Shown: one piece after another, positions 4,006 to 41,026 of the stretch
Layout of the letters: the number at the start of each line of letters is the position of its first letter
How positions within the stretch are numbered: position 1 is the stretch's first letter
Source of the DNA: Nanobdellota archaeon
Lineage (GTDB): Archaea; Nanobdellota; Nanobdellia; Pacearchaeales; GW2011-AR1
Assembly (NCBI GenBank): GCA_030647965.1
Contig: JAUSIT010000004.1
Location: forward strand, 1-41,026
Reading direction: 5' to 3'
DNA length: 41,026 bases
Made by a program: the position numbers and the translations under genes
The notes under the pieces: model-generated
What the model was told of the DNA's origin: nothing
Seen by the model: only the letters and a program-made list of their open reading frames with translations
Database searches by the model: none

Positions 4006-4191
4006 ATGAACTTCAATCTAACAACCACAAAAACACTTGTATCTTTGTCAATGCCAATTTGGATTGCAATATACTTTAATATTATATTAACACATTGCAT
4101 AGGAATATATTGTTATTCAAATCCAATAACTATCCTAGGAATTCCTTTGCTTTTAGCAGTATATATTATCTGGAGTTTATTTGAGAAATAA
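4006..4191 (+). CDS. 61-residue membrane protein, copy 1
   Basis: Two hydrophobic segments (about residues 13-30 and 40-57) joined by a short loop with HCxGxYCY cysteines. It is nearly identical to the protein at 6169-6354, and the DNA similarity carries on past both stop codons for about 35 bp into the tail of a minus-strand gene, so this is a segment duplication of roughly 220 bp. It starts 5 bp after the HEPN stop. Function unknown. Confidence 0.6.
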   Translation: MNFNLTTTKTLVSLSMPIWIAIYFNIILTHCIGIYCYSNPITILGIPLLLAVYIIWSLFEK

Positions 4192-4227
4192 TTAATCCCT
4201 CAGAACCACAACATTATTCATTCCTAT
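4192..4227 (-). pseudogene. Displaced 3' tail of the winged-helix regulator gene, copy 2
   Basis: The minus frame reads IGMNNVVVLRD followed by a stop at 4192-4194, the same ending and the same tail-to-tail abutment with the 61-residue gene as the intact regulator at 6355-6828. Directly upstream, the sequence changes to an unrelated RelE-like gene, whose stop (4228-4230) lies in the same frame. Only the last 11 codons survive. Confidence 0.7.
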
Positions 4228-5434: not shown

Positions 5435-6172
5435 ATGGCAGAACGAGAAATACTGGAAGAGCTTGGTTTATCAGAAACAGAAGCAAGAGTTTATCTTGCA
5501 TTAATAGATACAGGTTCCAGTCTAGCAGGTCCAATAATTAAAAAAACAGGGCTTCATAGAGGAACCACATACCAGATTTTACAGAGATTAAAAGAAAAAG
5601 GCCTTGTAAGTTCTATTATTCAAGGGAAAAAACAATATTTCCAACCAGTAAATCCAGAAAGATTAATGGATATTTTAAAACAAAGACAAGAAAAGTTAGA
5701 AGAAATACTTCCAAATCTTAAGGCAAAATTAAAAGCAAGTGAGGAAAAGCAGGAAGTTACTGTTTATTCAGGTGTTAAAGGAATAAGATCACTAATGGAT
5801 AAAATCTTGGAAGATTTAAACCCAGAAGGAAAATATTATGATTTTGGTGTTTCTGGTTTATTCAAGGAAATTATGAAAGAGTATTGGGATATATGGCAAA
5901 AAAAGAAAAGAAAATACAAAATAAAGTCTTATGTTATTTTTAATGAAGAAGTAAAAAAGAAGAACCCTCAATTGCTGAAAGATTATTATGGTGAAGCAAG
6001 ATTTCATCCAAAAGAATATTCAAGTATAACCGATACAATAATTTACAAAGATTTTGTCATCCTTTTTATTTGGACAGCAAAACCCCCCATAGCAGTTGTA
6101 ATTAAAAATAAAGGAAATGCAGATTCTTATAAAAATCAATTCAAACTGATGTGGAAATATTCTAAAAAATGA
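5435..6172 (+). CDS. TrmB-family transcriptional regulator
   Basis: A 245-residue protein. Residues about 4-75 form the TrmB winged helix, with the family's LGLSETEARVYLALI start and a recognition helix around GLHRGTTYQILQRL. A short coiled coil follows at about 80-100 (ERLMDILKQRQEKLEEILP), then a C-terminal regulatory domain (about 106-240, starting VTVYSGVKGIRSLM) of the type that follows many archaeal TrmB DNA-binding domains. It overlaps the following 61-residue membrane protein gene by 4 bp (ATGA), so the two are co-translated. Confidence 0.85.
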   Translation: MAEREILEELGLSETEARVYLALIDTGSSLAGPIIKKTGLHRGTTYQILQRLKEKGLVSSIIQGKKQYFQPVNPERLMDILKQRQEKLEEILPNLKAKLKASEEKQEVTVYSGVKGIRSLMDKILEDLNPEGKYYDFGVSGLFKEIMKEYWDIWQKKKRKYKIKSYVIFNEEVKKKNPQLLKDYYGEARFHPKEYSSITDTIIYKDFVILFIWTAKPPIAVVIKNKGNADSYKNQFKLMWKYSKK

Positions 6173-6354
6173 ACTTCAATCTAACAACCACAAAAACTCT
6201 TGTATCTTTATCAATGCCAATTTGGATTGCAATATACTTTAATATTATTTTAAAACACTGCGTAGGGATATATTGTTATTCAAATCCAATAATTATATTA
6301 GGAATTCCTTTGCTGTTAATTGTTTATCTTATTTGGAGCTTGTTTGAGAAATAA
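6169..6354 (+). CDS. 61-residue membrane protein, copy 2
   Basis: A near-identical duplicate of the protein at 4006-4191, with two hydrophobic segments. Its ATG overlaps the TrmB stop, and its own TAA (6352-6354) directly abuts the stop codon of the minus-strand regulator at 6355. The same junction is preserved at 4189-4194. Sequence divergence between the copies is mostly at third codon positions, which suggests that both are or were under selection as proteins. Confidence 0.6.
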   Translation: MNFNLTTTKTLVSLSMPIWIAIYFNIILKHCVGIYCYSNPIIILGIPLLLIVYLIWSLFEK

Positions 6355-6828
6355 TTAATCCCTAAGTACCACCACATTATTCATCCCTCTTCTCTTTCTT
6401 TCAATAAGTTGTTTTGCTTCTAATTTATCTAAAAGTCTTGTTATTCCAACTTTTCCAATCCCTAGTTTTTCCATTAAGCTCGCTTGAAACATGGTTCCAT
6501 TTTCACTTTGAAGCAAATCAATAGTTTTTCTTTCATAATTATCTAATCCTGTTAAATCCAATTTCTTTTTATGTTCTTTTATTTTTTTAATAACAATTCT
6601 TTCAGGTTCTTTTGCAAAAACAAAAAATAATCCAATTAAAAAAACCAAACCAGCAATTGCCAAGCTAATATCTGTTTGAGTTGAAATTGTCCCATACATT
6701 GAACAAGAAGGCCCATGAGTACATGTTTGAGCAACAATATTTTTTAAAGCATTATTAAATATAAAAATTATAATTGCAATTACAACTGCGATTCCGCTAA
6801 TTAAATATCCTACTTGTTTGTTTTTCAT
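6355..6828 (-). CDS. Membrane-anchored winged-helix regulator
   Basis: 157 residues. Two membrane helices (about 6-28 and 57-73) flank a short external loop with Cys36 and Cys42. After a basic stretch, a MarR/IclR-like winged helix (about 92-150) contains LMEKLGIGKVGITRLLDKLEAKQLIERKRRGMNNVVVLRD as its recognition helix and wing (split here: helix at GKVGITRLLDKLEA). Such proteins occur widely in archaea as putative membrane-tethered regulators. Its start region is repeated in tandem upstream (6816-6980), and its last 11 codons recur at 4192, 4982 and, decayed, 2944. Confidence 0.78.
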   Translation of the reverse strand: MKNKQVGYLISGIAVVIAIIIFIFNNALKNIVAQTCTHGPSCSMYGTISTQTDISLAIAGLVFLIGLFFVFAKEPERIVIKKIKEHKKKLDLTGLDNYERKTIDLLQSENGTMFQASLMEKLGIGKVGITRLLDKLEAKQLIERKRRGMNNVVVLRD

Positions 6829-6893
6829 GTGTCTTGTTCGTTGAAAAATAAATGCTCAAAAATCCAGAGATTTTTGTTGTGTTTGTTTTTCAT
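6825..6893 (-). CDS. Upstream ORF 2 (22 residues), overlaps the regulator start
   Basis: Reads MKNKHNKNLWIFEHLFFNEQDT and then TGA; the stop overlaps the regulator's ATG (ATGA at 6828-6825), which would allow translational coupling. It begins in the second copy of the repeated start region. It could equally be a by-product of the duplication. Confidence 0.35.
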   Translation of the reverse strand: MKNKHNKNLWIFEHLFFNEQDT

Positions 6894-6901
6894 GTGTCTT
6901 T

Positions 6902-6958
6902 TCAGTTGAAAAATAAATGCTCAAAAATCCAAAGATTTTTGTTGTGTTTGTTTTTCAT
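6902..6958 (-). CDS. Upstream ORF 1 (18 residues)
   Basis: Reads MKNKHNKNLWIFEHLFFN and then TGA, from the outermost copy of the repeated start region. It is the first ATG downstream of the TATA box at 7005-7013, so ribosomes on this transcript would meet it first. Confidence 0.3.
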   Translation of the reverse strand: MKNKHNKNLWIFEHLFFN

Positions 6959-7004
6959 GTGTCTTGTTCGTTGATTATTAAGTAATTAATGTCCTAAATC
7001 ACGC

Positions 7005-7013
7005 CTTATAAAG
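7005..7013 (-). promoter_or_regulatory. TATA box of the membrane winged-helix regulator
   Basis: On the minus strand CTTTATAAGG; the predicted transcription start near 6980 would put all three repeated start regions on the mRNA. Confidence 0.5.
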
Positions 7014-8170: not shown

Positions 8171-8701
8171 TCATTTTTTGCCTGATTCTTCAGCAAATTT
8201 AATATATCTCTCAATTTCTTTTTCTCTTTCTTTTGCAATTTTTTCATATTTTTCTAACATTTCTGATTTAGTTTTCTTACTTAAAGCATCTTCACTCATG
8301 GGATATAATATATTATCTTCTTTGAATATGTGCTCATGAATTAACTGAGAATATCCTCTTGCTCCATAAACTAATTTCTTTTTATCATTACTTTCCAATC
8401 CCTCAGTCATTAATTTCACACTTGCCCTACCTTCATCATGTTCAACTAACATTTGTTGAATAGGATTACAATGAGTACATCCTTCTTCAGCAGATTTATT
8501 GAATTCATAAAATAAAATATCTTCTTCTTTTGCATGATGAAATTTATCTGCATAATTTTTTATAAAATCAATAGCATTTATAAAAAAGGTTTGGTCAATT
8601 TCTTTTCCAGTTTCAATTGCATTACACTCTCTTTCAAGCACACCTACTAGTTTTAAGATATTTTTATGTTCATCAACAAGTATTTTTGTAATTTCTTCCA
8701 T
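8171..8701 (-). CDS. Hemerythrin-like (HHE) iron protein
   Basis: 176 residues from the ATG at 8701, set by a GGAGG ribosome-binding site at about 8712-8716; upstream in-frame codons belong to the leader element. Candidate iron ligands of the four-helix bundle are His12, His55/His56, Glu59/Glu60, His88, Glu90, His122, His124 and Glu128. A CTHC pair at about 75-78 could be redox active. Hemerythrins bind O2, NO or iron; next to desulfoferrodoxin and Fe-S genes, a role in oxygen/NO sensing or in supplying iron for Fe-S repair (as for RIC/YtfE-type proteins) is likely, but that is inference. Confidence 0.82.
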   Translation of the reverse strand: MEEITKILVDEHKNILKLVGVLERECNAIETGKEIDQTFFINAIDFIKNYADKFHHAKEEDILFYEFNKSAEEGCTHCNPIQQMLVEHDEGRASVKLMTEGLESNDKKKLVYGARGYSQLIHEHIFKEDNILYPMSEDALSKKTKSEMLEKYEKIAKEREKEIERYIKFAEESGKK

Positions 8702-8711
8702 TTTTTTAATT

Positions 8712-8808
8712 TCCTCCAAGTTTCCTTGGAAATTTAAAAGACAGAAAATCAGAGATTTTCCGTATTTCCAACTCATTCAATCCAATAGGCAAACAATAAT
8801 TGTTGGAA
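8712..8808 (-). repeat. Double-hairpin leader element, copy J, with RBS hairpin
   Basis: On the minus strand, in order: GTTGGAA/TTCCAAC (8802-8808 with 8766-8772), ACGGAAAATC/GATTTTCTGT (8754-8763 with 8741-8750; one G-U pair), then CCAAG-GAAA-CTTGG (8716-8729), a GNRA-type hairpin directly followed by GGAGG and the hemerythrin ATG. It fills the gap between desulfoferrodoxin and hemerythrin. The same arrangement is at 10061-10204. A role in controlling translation of the downstream gene is plausible. Confidence 0.75.
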
Positions 8809-9606: not shown

Positions 9607-9840
9607 TTATTTCTTCCCCTTCTTATTTAATTCCTTAACTAATTCATCAGGATTAACTCCATGGGCCAAAGCACCTTGTTCAATTGTTTCTTGCATTGCC
9701 ATAGGGCATCCACAACACATCATTCCTCTTTCAGAAAGTTTCATTGCAGCACCCCTATCATTTTGAATTAATTCTGCAAAAGTCATTTTCTTGTTTACTT
9801 TTCCTTTTTCAGTTTTTTTTGTTTGTTTTTTTGTTTTCAT
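9607..9840 (-). CDS. DUF1858 domain protein (redox-disulfide type)
   Basis: 77 residues: a Lys-rich N-terminus, then a DUF1858 domain from Met19 with the conserved MCCGCPMA motif (Cys42, Cys43, Cys45) and the AHGVNPDELVKELN ending. These domains are found alone or fused to hybrid-cluster or Fe-S enzymes and probably act in thiol/redox handling. It overlaps the upstream gene's stop by 4 bp. Confidence 0.85.
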   Translation of the reverse strand: MKTKKQTKKTEKGKVNKKMTFAELIQNDRGAAMKLSERGMMCCGCPMAMQETIEQGALAHGVNPDELVKELNKKGKK

Positions 9841-10052
9841 TTTTTGCTCGTCCTCCTTTTTGCTTTTACTTCTAAAATTGCTTTACTTTTTCCTGCAAGT
9901 GGTGGAAGTATATGTGATAACACTTGCTCTGCAGTCATTGGAAAAAAATTTCCTTTTGCACTTTTTTGCATCCATCCTTTTTTAGTTTTGTATATGGTTT
10001 GCACTATTTTGTTTTTGCTTTTTGCATAAATTATACATTCGTCGTTTTTCAT
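9837..10052 (-). CDS. Hypothetical 71-residue basic protein
   Basis: Starts at the ATG at 10052, preceded by TTGGAGGAAATT; codons further upstream in frame translate the leader hairpin and are not protein. The product is basic, with one Cys and a Lys/Arg-rich C-terminus, and has no motif that I recognise. It is translationally coupled to DUF1858 (ATGA overlap) and so is probably part of the Fe-S/stress response. Confidence 0.6.
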   Translation of the reverse strand: MKNDECIIYAKSKNKIVQTIYKTKKGWMQKSAKGNFFPMTAEQVLSHILPPLAGKSKAILEVKAKRRTSKK

Positions 10053-16369: not shown

Positions 16370-16488
16370 ATAAAATAAACATTAAACCTATTTTTAAATC
16401 TTGTGAAAAAATCATTTCTTAGTTAGTTAAAATAATTTCAACTTTTTGCAATTTGTTTTTATAATGGGAAGTATATTTGACCTATTAA

Positions 16489-16567
16489 TTTATTAATAAA
16501 TCGTAATTCAAAAAGTTTTGCTCTTACAATAGGTAATGTAAGATAAAAGAGCAAAACTTTTTGTCGC
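16489..16567. repeat. S-type hairpin element, copy C
   Basis: A perfect 16-bp stem: 16510-16525 (AAAAAGTTTTGCTCTT) with 16547-16562, and a 21-nt loop starting ACAATAGGTAATGTAAGA. It is preceded by ATTTATTAAT (about 16490), as in copies D and E, and followed by GTCG. It lies between the divergent DsbA-like and LemA genes. Apart from this element and the TATA box, 16370-16653 shows no gene. Confidence 0.85.
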
Positions 16568-16624
16568 CAGAAGATTCCATTAATCTTGCCAAAGGCACAT
16601 CCTTTAAAACGATAAATAAAAACC

Positions 16625-22482: not shown

Positions 22483-22536
22483 TTAAAAACATGTTAAGTA
22501 AACCTCTAAACATTACATACAACTTCGTTGAATTGG

Positions 22537-22687
22537 TTTATTCAATTGAATAAAGATAAAATGATTGCCTGGCGACAATCACGATTTATTAATAGATAGT
22601 AGGAGACGCAAAAAGTTTTACTCTTACAATAGAAACGAAAAAGATAAGAGCAAAACTTTTTAGTCGACTTAATATTTCTGCGAAGCA
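22537..22687. repeat. Modular multi-hairpin element, copy D
   Basis: In order: an 18-nt perfect palindrome TTTATTCAATTGAATAAA (22537-22554); hairpin GATTG/CAATC (22563-22567, 22576-22580) with loop CCTGGCGA; linker GATTTATTAAT; GGAGACGC; S-type stem 22610-22625 with 22646-22661 (one mismatch in 16); TCGAC; and the triloop hairpin TGC-GAA-GCA (22679-22687). Copy E (34243-34407) has the same blocks with altered but complementary stems. Confidence 0.85.
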
Positions 22688-22766
22688 CAATATTATATGA
22701 GGTTAAATTAGAAGGTTTACTTTTAACAACAGCAAAATTTATATACTAGCTCTGCTTTAATTTTCT

Positions 22767-34242: not shown

Positions 34243-34407
34243 GTCCTTTGGACAAATTATGCTAAAGCAAGATTTATGGAATTTTCTAGCGAAAATTATG
34301 ATTTATTAATTAATTGTGGGAGATGCAAAAAGTTTTGCTCTTGCAATAAGTAACGCAAGATAAAAGAGTAAAACTTTTTCTAATCGACCTAATATCTCCA
34401 CGAAGTG
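34243..34407. repeat. Modular multi-hairpin element, copy E
   Basis: GTCC/GGAC (34243-34246, 34250-34253); AATTTT/AAAATT (34280-34285, 34292-34297) with loop CTAGCG; linker GATTTATTAAT; GTGGGAGAT near 34316-34324, which can pair with ATCTCCAC at 34394-34401; S-type stem 34327-34342 with 34364-34379 (one G-T pair); and the triloop hairpin CAC-GAA-GTG (34399-34407). Block order is as in copy D. Other than elements H and E and a TATA-like CTTTTAAATG at 34481-34490, 34146-34516 holds no gene. Confidence 0.85.
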
Positions 34408-34516
34408 CAAATTATAATAAACAAACACATTTTTCCTCCAAAAACCCTAAAAAAGAACTATATAATACAAATCCATAATTCTTTTAAATGGATTTTTTCT
34501 ATTAAATTTGATTAAA

Positions 34517-39724: not shown

Positions 39725-41026
39725 ATGTTAATCCAGAAAAAACCTACAAAAACAATTTCAGGAGTTACTCCAATTGCAATAATGCTTCCTCCTAAAAAAT
39801 GCAAGCATGGAACTTGTTTATATTGCCCTAGTTTAAATGCTCCCCAGTCATATACTCCTGAAAGTCCTGCTGTTTTAAGAGCAAAAAAAGTAAAATATGA
39901 CCCTGAAGAACAAATGAAAGAAAGATTAAGCTCTTTAACTGCAATAAATCACCCAACAGACAAAATAGAACTAATTATCATGGGGGGGAATTTCTTAAAT
40001 TTTTCAGAAAAATTTCAGTTTGATTTTATAAAAAAATGCTATGATCGCTTAAATGAAAAAACTTCAAAAAGTCTAGAACATGCAAAAAAAATAAATGAAA
40101 CAGCAAAACACAGATGTGTTGCTTTATGCATTGAAACACGGCCTGATTTTATTAATGAAATAAATCTTACTAATATTTTAAAATTCGGAGCAACTAGAAT
40201 TGAACTAGGTGTTCAGGCAATTGATAATAAAATCTATGAACTAGTTAATAGAAAACACACTGTACAAGATGTAATTGATGCAACAAAAAAGCTTAAGCAA
40301 GCAGGATTTAAAATAGGATACCATATTATGCCAGGAATTTTAGGCTCAAATCCAAAAAAAGATATTCAAATGTTTAAAAAAATATTTTCTTCTCAAGACT
40401 TTAAACCAGATCAGCTAAAAATATATCCTTGTCAGGTTCTAAAAGGTGCACAATTAGAAAAATTATATTATGAAGCAAAATACAAACCATATGACAAAGA
40501 ACAAACAAAAGAATTAATTATAAAAATGTTAAGACTAACTCCTGAATATTGTAGAGTTATGAGAATAATGAGGGAAATTCCCCCATCTTTTTTAATTGCA
40601 GGAATTGTTAATATTGATTTAAGAAAAGATATTGAAGATGAAATAAGAAAAAAACACTACAAAGTAAAAGAAATAAGATTTAGAGAAATAGGATTTGAAC
40701 TAAGAGACAAAAGAAAAATAAATCTTGATTTAAAAATAAAAAAGCTAGAATACAAAGCTTCTGATGGAAAAGAAATATTTTTACAAGTAGTAAACAAAGA
40801 CAATATTTTATTTGGCTTGCTAAGATTAAGATTAGAAAAAGATAAAAATCTTCCTGCAACAATAAGAGAATTGCATATTTATGGCCCATCACTTAAATTG
40901 CTAGAGCATGATGAAGAAAAATACCAACATAAAGGCCTTGGAAAACAGCTAATGCTAAAAGCAGAAGAAATTGCTAAAAAAGAAAAAAGAAAAATAATAA
41001 GAGTAATTTCAGGCGTTGGAGTAAGG
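39725..41026 (+). CDS. elp3: Elongator-like Elp3 (radical SAM + acetyltransferase), 3'-truncated by the window
   Basis: 434 codons are visible and the frame runs off the window. The radical SAM cluster motif CKHGTCLYC has Cys26, Cys31 and Cys34. IMGGNFLNF, RIELGVQAI and KIGYHIMPGILGS (radical SAM core) and, near the end, RELHIYG and YQHKGLGKQLMLKAEEIA (start of the GNAT domain) follow. It catalyses the cm5U-type modification of tRNA wobble uridine. The cluster lies only 26 residues from the Met; archaeal Elp3 usually has about 70-100 residues before it, so this form lacks the N-terminal extension. The frame is open upstream only to 39695, so a longer N-terminus is not possible. Confidence 0.93.
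   Translation, partial: MLIQKKPTKTISGVTPIAIMLPPKKCKHGTCLYCPSLNAPQSYTPESPAVLRAKKVKYDPEEQMKERLSSLTAINHPTDKIELIIMGGNFLNFSEKFQFDFIKKCYDRLNEKTSKSLEHAKKINETAKHRCVALCIETRPDFINEINLTNILKFGATRIELGVQAIDNKIYELVNRKHTVQDVIDATKKLKQAGFKIGYHIMPGILGSNPKKDIQMFKKIFSSQDFKPDQLKIYPCQVLKGAQLEKLYYEAKYKPYDKEQTKELIIKMLRLTPEYCRVMRIMREIPPSFLIAGIVNIDLRKDIEDEIRKKHYKVKEIRFREIGFELRDKRKINLDLKIKKLEYKASDGKEIFLQVVNKDNILFGLLRLRLEKDKNLPATIRELHIYGPSLKLLEHDEEKYQHKGLGKQLMLKAEEIAKKEKRKIIRVISGVGVR

Follow-up and report, generated by a model that had tools for sequence, protein, structure and literature searches.

In bacterial leader-peptide attenuators of the trp and erm type, short ORFs and hairpins are located in the leader of the regulated gene. 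Intergenic tandem repeats with variable copy number constitute the VNTR type, and in CRISPR arrays the repeats are separated by unrelated spacers. In archaea, termination-reinitiation of overlapping ORFs has been described in Haloferax volcanii (PMC6728339, PMC10666635). In this species, overlaps and very short gaps couple the two ORFs, reinitiation is ~60% lower at a gap of 13 nt, and it is abolished at 22 nt (PMC10666635). Within the papers that were available to it, our literature search for archaeal leader peptides, start-region repeats and intergenic repeats of Pacearchaeota found no precedent.

The window, i.e. the whole stretch of 41,026 nucleotides that was analyzed, corresponds to contig C29 in a draft genome of 982 kb (45 contigs, 85% complete), a MAG that is the only genome available for its species. 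The nearest orthologs of the regulator gene studied here are found in Pacearchaeota and Nanoarchaeota MAGs, which identifies the source as an uncultured DPANN archaeon of this group. The 157-aa regulator matched Pfam PF24034 (DUF7343) with E=3e-9, above the cut-off, and MarR models slightly below it. The hydrophobic segments of the protein were read by eye from the sequence, and it appears to be membrane-bound. Between these segments, C36, C42 and M44 are invariant in 38 of 38 aligned regulator sequences. This pattern suggests that the winged helix is connected to a sensor of metals or thiols outside the cytoplasm.

Tandem Repeats Finder (TRF) detected an array over the upstream and start region of the regulator gene (6815–6974, minus strand) with a period of 65, 2.5 copies, 94% matches and a score of 297. 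No other array in the window scores as high, and of the 77 arrays found in 316 kb of the genome, a sample composed of the window and 15 further stretches (L092–L106), one alone has a higher score; chance can therefore be excluded. The 65-bp tandem repeat reported in the preliminary description is thus real, although the bounds given there, 6816–6980, had to be corrected. On the minus strand the blocks follow each other in the order A(29)-H1(36)-B(29)-H2(36)-C(29), so that two 36-bp hairpin blocks alternate with the 29-bp blocks (Table 1). All three of the expected 29-bp blocks are present and contain ATGAAAAACAAACA, but only the first and the third are identical; in block B, CGAACAAG is changed to CTGAAAAG at three positions. 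H1 and H2 are identical at 35 of 36 positions, and each holds the stem-loop CAAAAATC-YYTG-GATTTTTG with a perfect stem of 8 bp and a loop of 4 nt. A naive detector might take three 29-bp repeats with two 36-bp "spacers" for a CRISPR mini-array, a reading that we rejected because the "spacers" are nearly the same sequence and the repeat contains the start codon of a conserved gene.

Table 1. Positions of the features at the regulator locus and of the dispersed elements (window coordinates unless a stretch is named)
Feature	Position	Strand	Description
Predicted promoter	7005-7012	-	TATA-like element TTTATAAG, from sequence
Block A, 29 bp	6945-6973	-	Holds uORF1 start codon; identical to block C
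Hairpin block H1, 36 bp	6909-6944	-	Perfect 8-bp stem and 4-nt loop at 6922-6941
Block B, 29 bp	6880-6908	-	Holds uORF2 start codon; differs from A and C at 3 positions
Hairpin block H2, 36 bp	6844-6879	-	Hairpin at 6857-6876; 1 difference from H1
Block C, 29 bp	6815-6843	-	Contains true regulator start; most orthologs begin M[EK]NKxVG at the same codon
uORF1, 18 codons + TGA	6902-6958	-	MKNKHNKNLWIFEHLFFN; translated by reading
uORF2, 22 codons + TGA	6825-6893	-	MKNKHNKNLWIFEHLFFNEQDT; ATGA overlap with regulator
Regulator, 157 aa	6355-6828	-	Two hydrophobic N-terminal segments and C-terminal winged helix (DUF7343/MarR-like)
el2 copies in window	22506-22703, 34265-34410, 16487-16568	-	Dispersed intergenic family
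el2 copies elsewhere	L105 17727-18046, L093 17381-17590, L106 680-891, others		
el1 copies	L115 1440-1660, L116 1440-1660, L082, L118, L117, L080		

The two upstream ORFs of 18 and 22 codons and the ATGA overlap with the regulator are present in the sequence exactly as first described. The TGA of uORF1 is separated from the next ATG by a gap of 8 nt, and uORF2 shares the 4 nt ATGA with the regulator, which starts at 6828. Because the start reads ATGA and the period of 65 equals 2 modulo 3, a unit that stays open necessarily ends in an ATGA overlap with the next one. When random 36-bp inserts were simulated with the 29-bp blocks and the period fixed, 39% of them yielded the identical overlap. 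The overlap therefore stems largely from the geometry of the repeat, and we rejected it as a sign of design. The one difference between the units that could report on selection of the uORF peptide is synonymous (CTT/CTC) and hence uninformative.

To place the start of the transcript, we used the TATA boxes of the genome itself as a ruler, scoring 8-mers with at least 7 of 8 matches upstream of 161 first-of-operon genes. In 48 of the 161 the 8-mer begins exactly 29 nt before the start codon, and 38.5% of first genes carry it at -32 to -27, compared to a background of 6%. This peak indicates that leaderless mRNAs are probably common in this genome, and among the 52 regulator orthologs about 17 likewise have their best TATA between -27 and -31. 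With the same spacing of 29 nt, transcription of the regulator is predicted to start at about 6983, 25 nt before the start of uORF1 and 155 nt before that of the regulator. A leader of ~155 nt would be unusual where promoters of the leaderless type dominate. An mRNA from the predicted promoter would carry both uORFs, a proposal of the preliminary description that the ruler makes plausible. A bacterial-type scan called promoters no more often than in shuffled sequences. The Shine-Dalgarno motif (GAACAAGACACATG or TGAAAAGACACATG) is absent before all three ATGs and, given also the leader of ~25 nt, uORF1 may be translated inefficiently.

In the ATGA overlap and the 8-nt gap the locus is similar to the coupled ORFs of Haloferax. 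The stop-start distances of +8 and -4 nt are within the coupling range of about -8 to +10 nt (PMC10666635), so that both uORF junctions are expected to be permissive. In contrast, the Haloferax pairs are real genes, whereas here the upstream members are predicted ORFs of 18 and 22 codons that arise from repeat geometry. If the predicted promoter is used, the regulator is probably translated by termination-reinitiation, which would dampen its expression.

The explanation that we prefer, and hold to be reasonably probable, is a lineage-specific tandem duplication around a hairpin with the likely consequence of reduced or buffered expression through reinitiation after the uORFs, rather than a switch that responds to a ligand. 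In this view, the 29-bp start region of the regulator came to flank a short hairpin segment on both sides, and the 65-bp unit thus formed underwent a further tandem duplication, for which slippage or template switching at the hairpin is the probable mechanism. The true start codon would thereby have been displaced by 130 bp from the promoter, leaving two short ORFs ahead of it. If the mRNA starts from the TATA box at 7012–7005, ribosomes would translate uORF1, stop 8 nt before uORF2 and reinitiate; as uORF2 ends on the start codon of the regulator, a second reinitiation would follow at the ATGA overlap. The predicted outcome is constitutively lower or buffered expression of the regulator, and a ligand-responsive switch would require more than the sequence displays. 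If the uORF chain is translated, the locus would represent a natural case in which one tandem duplication turned an archaeal gene with a short leader into a uORF-controlled one, and it would test the range over which ribosomes are handed on without Shine-Dalgarno motifs.

The origin by a recent duplication is favoured by comparison with relatives. Neither the repeat nor an array of coupled short ORFs was found in any of 52 distinct upstream regions of orthologs from Pacearchaeota and Nanoarchaeota. A leader-peptide attenuator would be expected to show a conserved short ORF upstream of the orthologs, and no comparable array was detected in these 52 regions. A set of 55 related genomes contained no close DNA match to the repeat, the best foreign match being 31 bp, and no relative of the uORF peptide better than E=0.026. 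Likewise, no second copy of the repeat or of the hairpin block was found in the genome itself, the 55 relatives, viral contigs or related loci. Arrays that overlap gene starts are not enriched in the 316-kb sample (2 of 77, 3.6 expected), and a general mechanism of start-region duplication was rejected on this ground. The absence of the repeat in orthologs, a peptide with no convincing relative, an overlap explained by geometry and unenriched starts together favour a recent tandem duplication specific to this lineage. Most likely, the repeat is a private mutation of one lineage with a modest effect. Two further weak arrays over gene starts in the window (8682–8718 and 9786–9845), which had suggested such a general duplication of start regions, consist of A-rich low-complexity sequence.

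With regard to the origin of the hairpin block, it may be a decayed fragment of a dispersed element that was inserted in the start region, with the 29-bp repeats as by-products. We regard this as possible though clearly less probable than not having such a source; it concerns origin and is compatible with our preferred explanation of the effect. Of the 24 bases in the element-I hairpin CAAAAATTTACGAATTTTTGAGCA (L105 6380–6403, E=0.48 in the sample), 20 are shared by the sequence CAAAAATCTTTGGATTTTTGAGCA of the block, and both have a trailing AGCA. A degenerate pattern of the hairpin gave 9 forward and 13 reverse matches, compared to 0 and 1 in the control, and the remaining five hairpins of the sample that are followed by GAGCA are all part of the dispersed elements. 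On the other hand, profile models of the two dispersed families, el1 and el2, do not match the repeat, a search for dispersed partners of the repeat region gave none at E<=1e-3, and the flanks of block and element differ beyond the 24 bp. Of the proposed insertion of a hairpin module with a 29-bp target duplication, the module is thus possible in view of the 20 shared bases, whereas the target duplication is a weak part of the claim, as we judge 29 bp to be very long for known transposition.

Hairpin-unit tandem arrays also occur at the unrelated intergenic sites L102 14017–14312 and L098 7961–8068. Among five non-coding arrays, three have a unit stem of at least 7 and two do not (stems of 6 and 3). 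The other hairpin-unit arrays fit slippage provoked by hairpins, with five arrays being a small sample. An array at L102 13960–14312 has three copies of 99 bp with hairpins and a repeated GATTCGAACC, which resembles a tRNA T-arm; no tRNA was called there.

A second possibility, which we consider unlikely, is that the duplication is neutral because the transcript starts within the innermost copy or shortly ahead of it, or comes from the upstream operon, and the regulator is translated independently. A weak TATA-like sequence, TTTATTTT, does lie at -24 of the regulator start with 6 of 8 matches, as read from the sequence, and genes for a cupin, a ferredoxin-like protein, a hemerythrin, a desulfoferrodoxin and a NifU-like protein are located upstream on the same strand. 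However, the TATA boxes of this genome have their peak precisely at -29, and no box with at least 7 matches was seen in the 75 nt before the start of the regulator.

According to the preliminary description, the layout would suit a leader-peptide switch. In such a switch, translation of the uORFs would control hairpin folding and thus tune the regulator; each hairpin could hide a start codon or act with a T-tract as a terminator. The short ORFs and leader hairpins are indeed shared with the trp and erm attenuators, and the predicted folding is in line with the idea. Each 65-nt unit is predicted to form a longer, imperfect hairpin in which UUUAUUUUUCA is paired to the unit's own AUG and the bases just behind it (-9.2 kcal/mol; z of -2.1 and -2.6 for the two units). 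The UUUAUUUUUCA arm can alternatively pair with the start region that follows (-1.6 kcal/mol), and folding of the whole leader is more stable than that of shuffled sequences (z = -3.4). However, most of this folding excess is expected when a palindrome is present twice, and duplicating any palindrome in tandem automatically creates competing pairings. In contrast to attenuators, the uORF peptide shows no run of regulatory codons, a clear terminator or antiterminator is missing (the bacterial-type scan called no terminator), and conservation is lacking in both orthologs and peptide. Together with the geometric overlap and the missing Shine-Dalgarno motifs, this leaves the switch unsupported beyond its layout, and we regard it as improbable.

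Slightly more improbable still is a stepwise translational damper, in which near-identical, self-overlapping mini-ORFs precede the regulator and the number of 65-bp units sets expression like a rheostat. The array resembles a VNTR in having a 65-bp unit in 2.5 copies near the promoter, the number of which could in principle change. Differently from a VNTR, a change in copy number here would not shift the gene frame, and the comparison is based on one genome. Gain or loss of one unit would alter the number of uORFs and leave the frame of the regulator intact; for this reason on/off phase variation is not expected.

That the array is an artefact of metagenome assembly is very improbable: although the genome is a single, incomplete draft MAG in many contigs and another array, at a contig end (L092 1–125), is a perfect repeat, the copies here differ at 1 and 3 positions, which is not the usual product of assembly errors, and their position is internal to a contig of 41 kb.

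Several other repeats were observed in this genome. The ends of L106 (1–417) and of the window (40610–41026) have 417 bp in common at 95% identity, and this repeat probably broke the assembly. A 195-bp stretch that includes a 61-aa ORF (6169–6354) is present in the window in two copies of 90% identity, at about 4006–4200 and 6169–6363. Perfect hairpins (stem >=7, loop 3–5; counted in the 316-kb sample) are about three times as frequent as expected in non-coding DNA (129 vs 44), whereas their number in coding DNA agrees with the expected one (176 vs 187); they are often grouped with a spacing of about 26 bp. The Rfam search of the window had no match, nor did el1 or el2 match Rfam in the loci scanned. 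Members of el2, a dispersed intergenic family, reach a length of about 280 bp; the el2 profile matched 40 times in the 316 kb and had no match in about 350 kb of related loci. Its long stem GAAAAAGTTTTGCTCTT...AAGAGCAAAACTTTTT carries compensatory changes at several pairs, and el2 could be either a MITE-like element or a structured RNA. The second family, el1, is about 190 bp long, with at least 6 copies that are about 85–92% alike. It forms several nested hairpins with compensatory changes (TCAARAATYTACGRATTYTTGA) and has short partial matches in three related genomes.

Finally, the ortholog loci point to a site that is likely to be the regulator's operator: 21 of the 39 carry an exact copy of the palindrome GAAACTAGTTTC, in most cases no more than about 75 bp away from the regulator gene (for example at L045 4942, L057 4948, L069 4937 and L037 5495). 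It is missing at the regulator's own promoter in the window. With one mismatch it is found at 2311–2322 of the window, 39 bp upstream of the gene at 2272–818, which encodes heavy-metal-binding and DsbD-like domains. In addition, two copies of TAAACTTATAGTTTATATAAC at L102 13802–13841 stand immediately upstream of an ORF beginning ATGAAAAACAAA and look like a tandem palindromic operator-like site.
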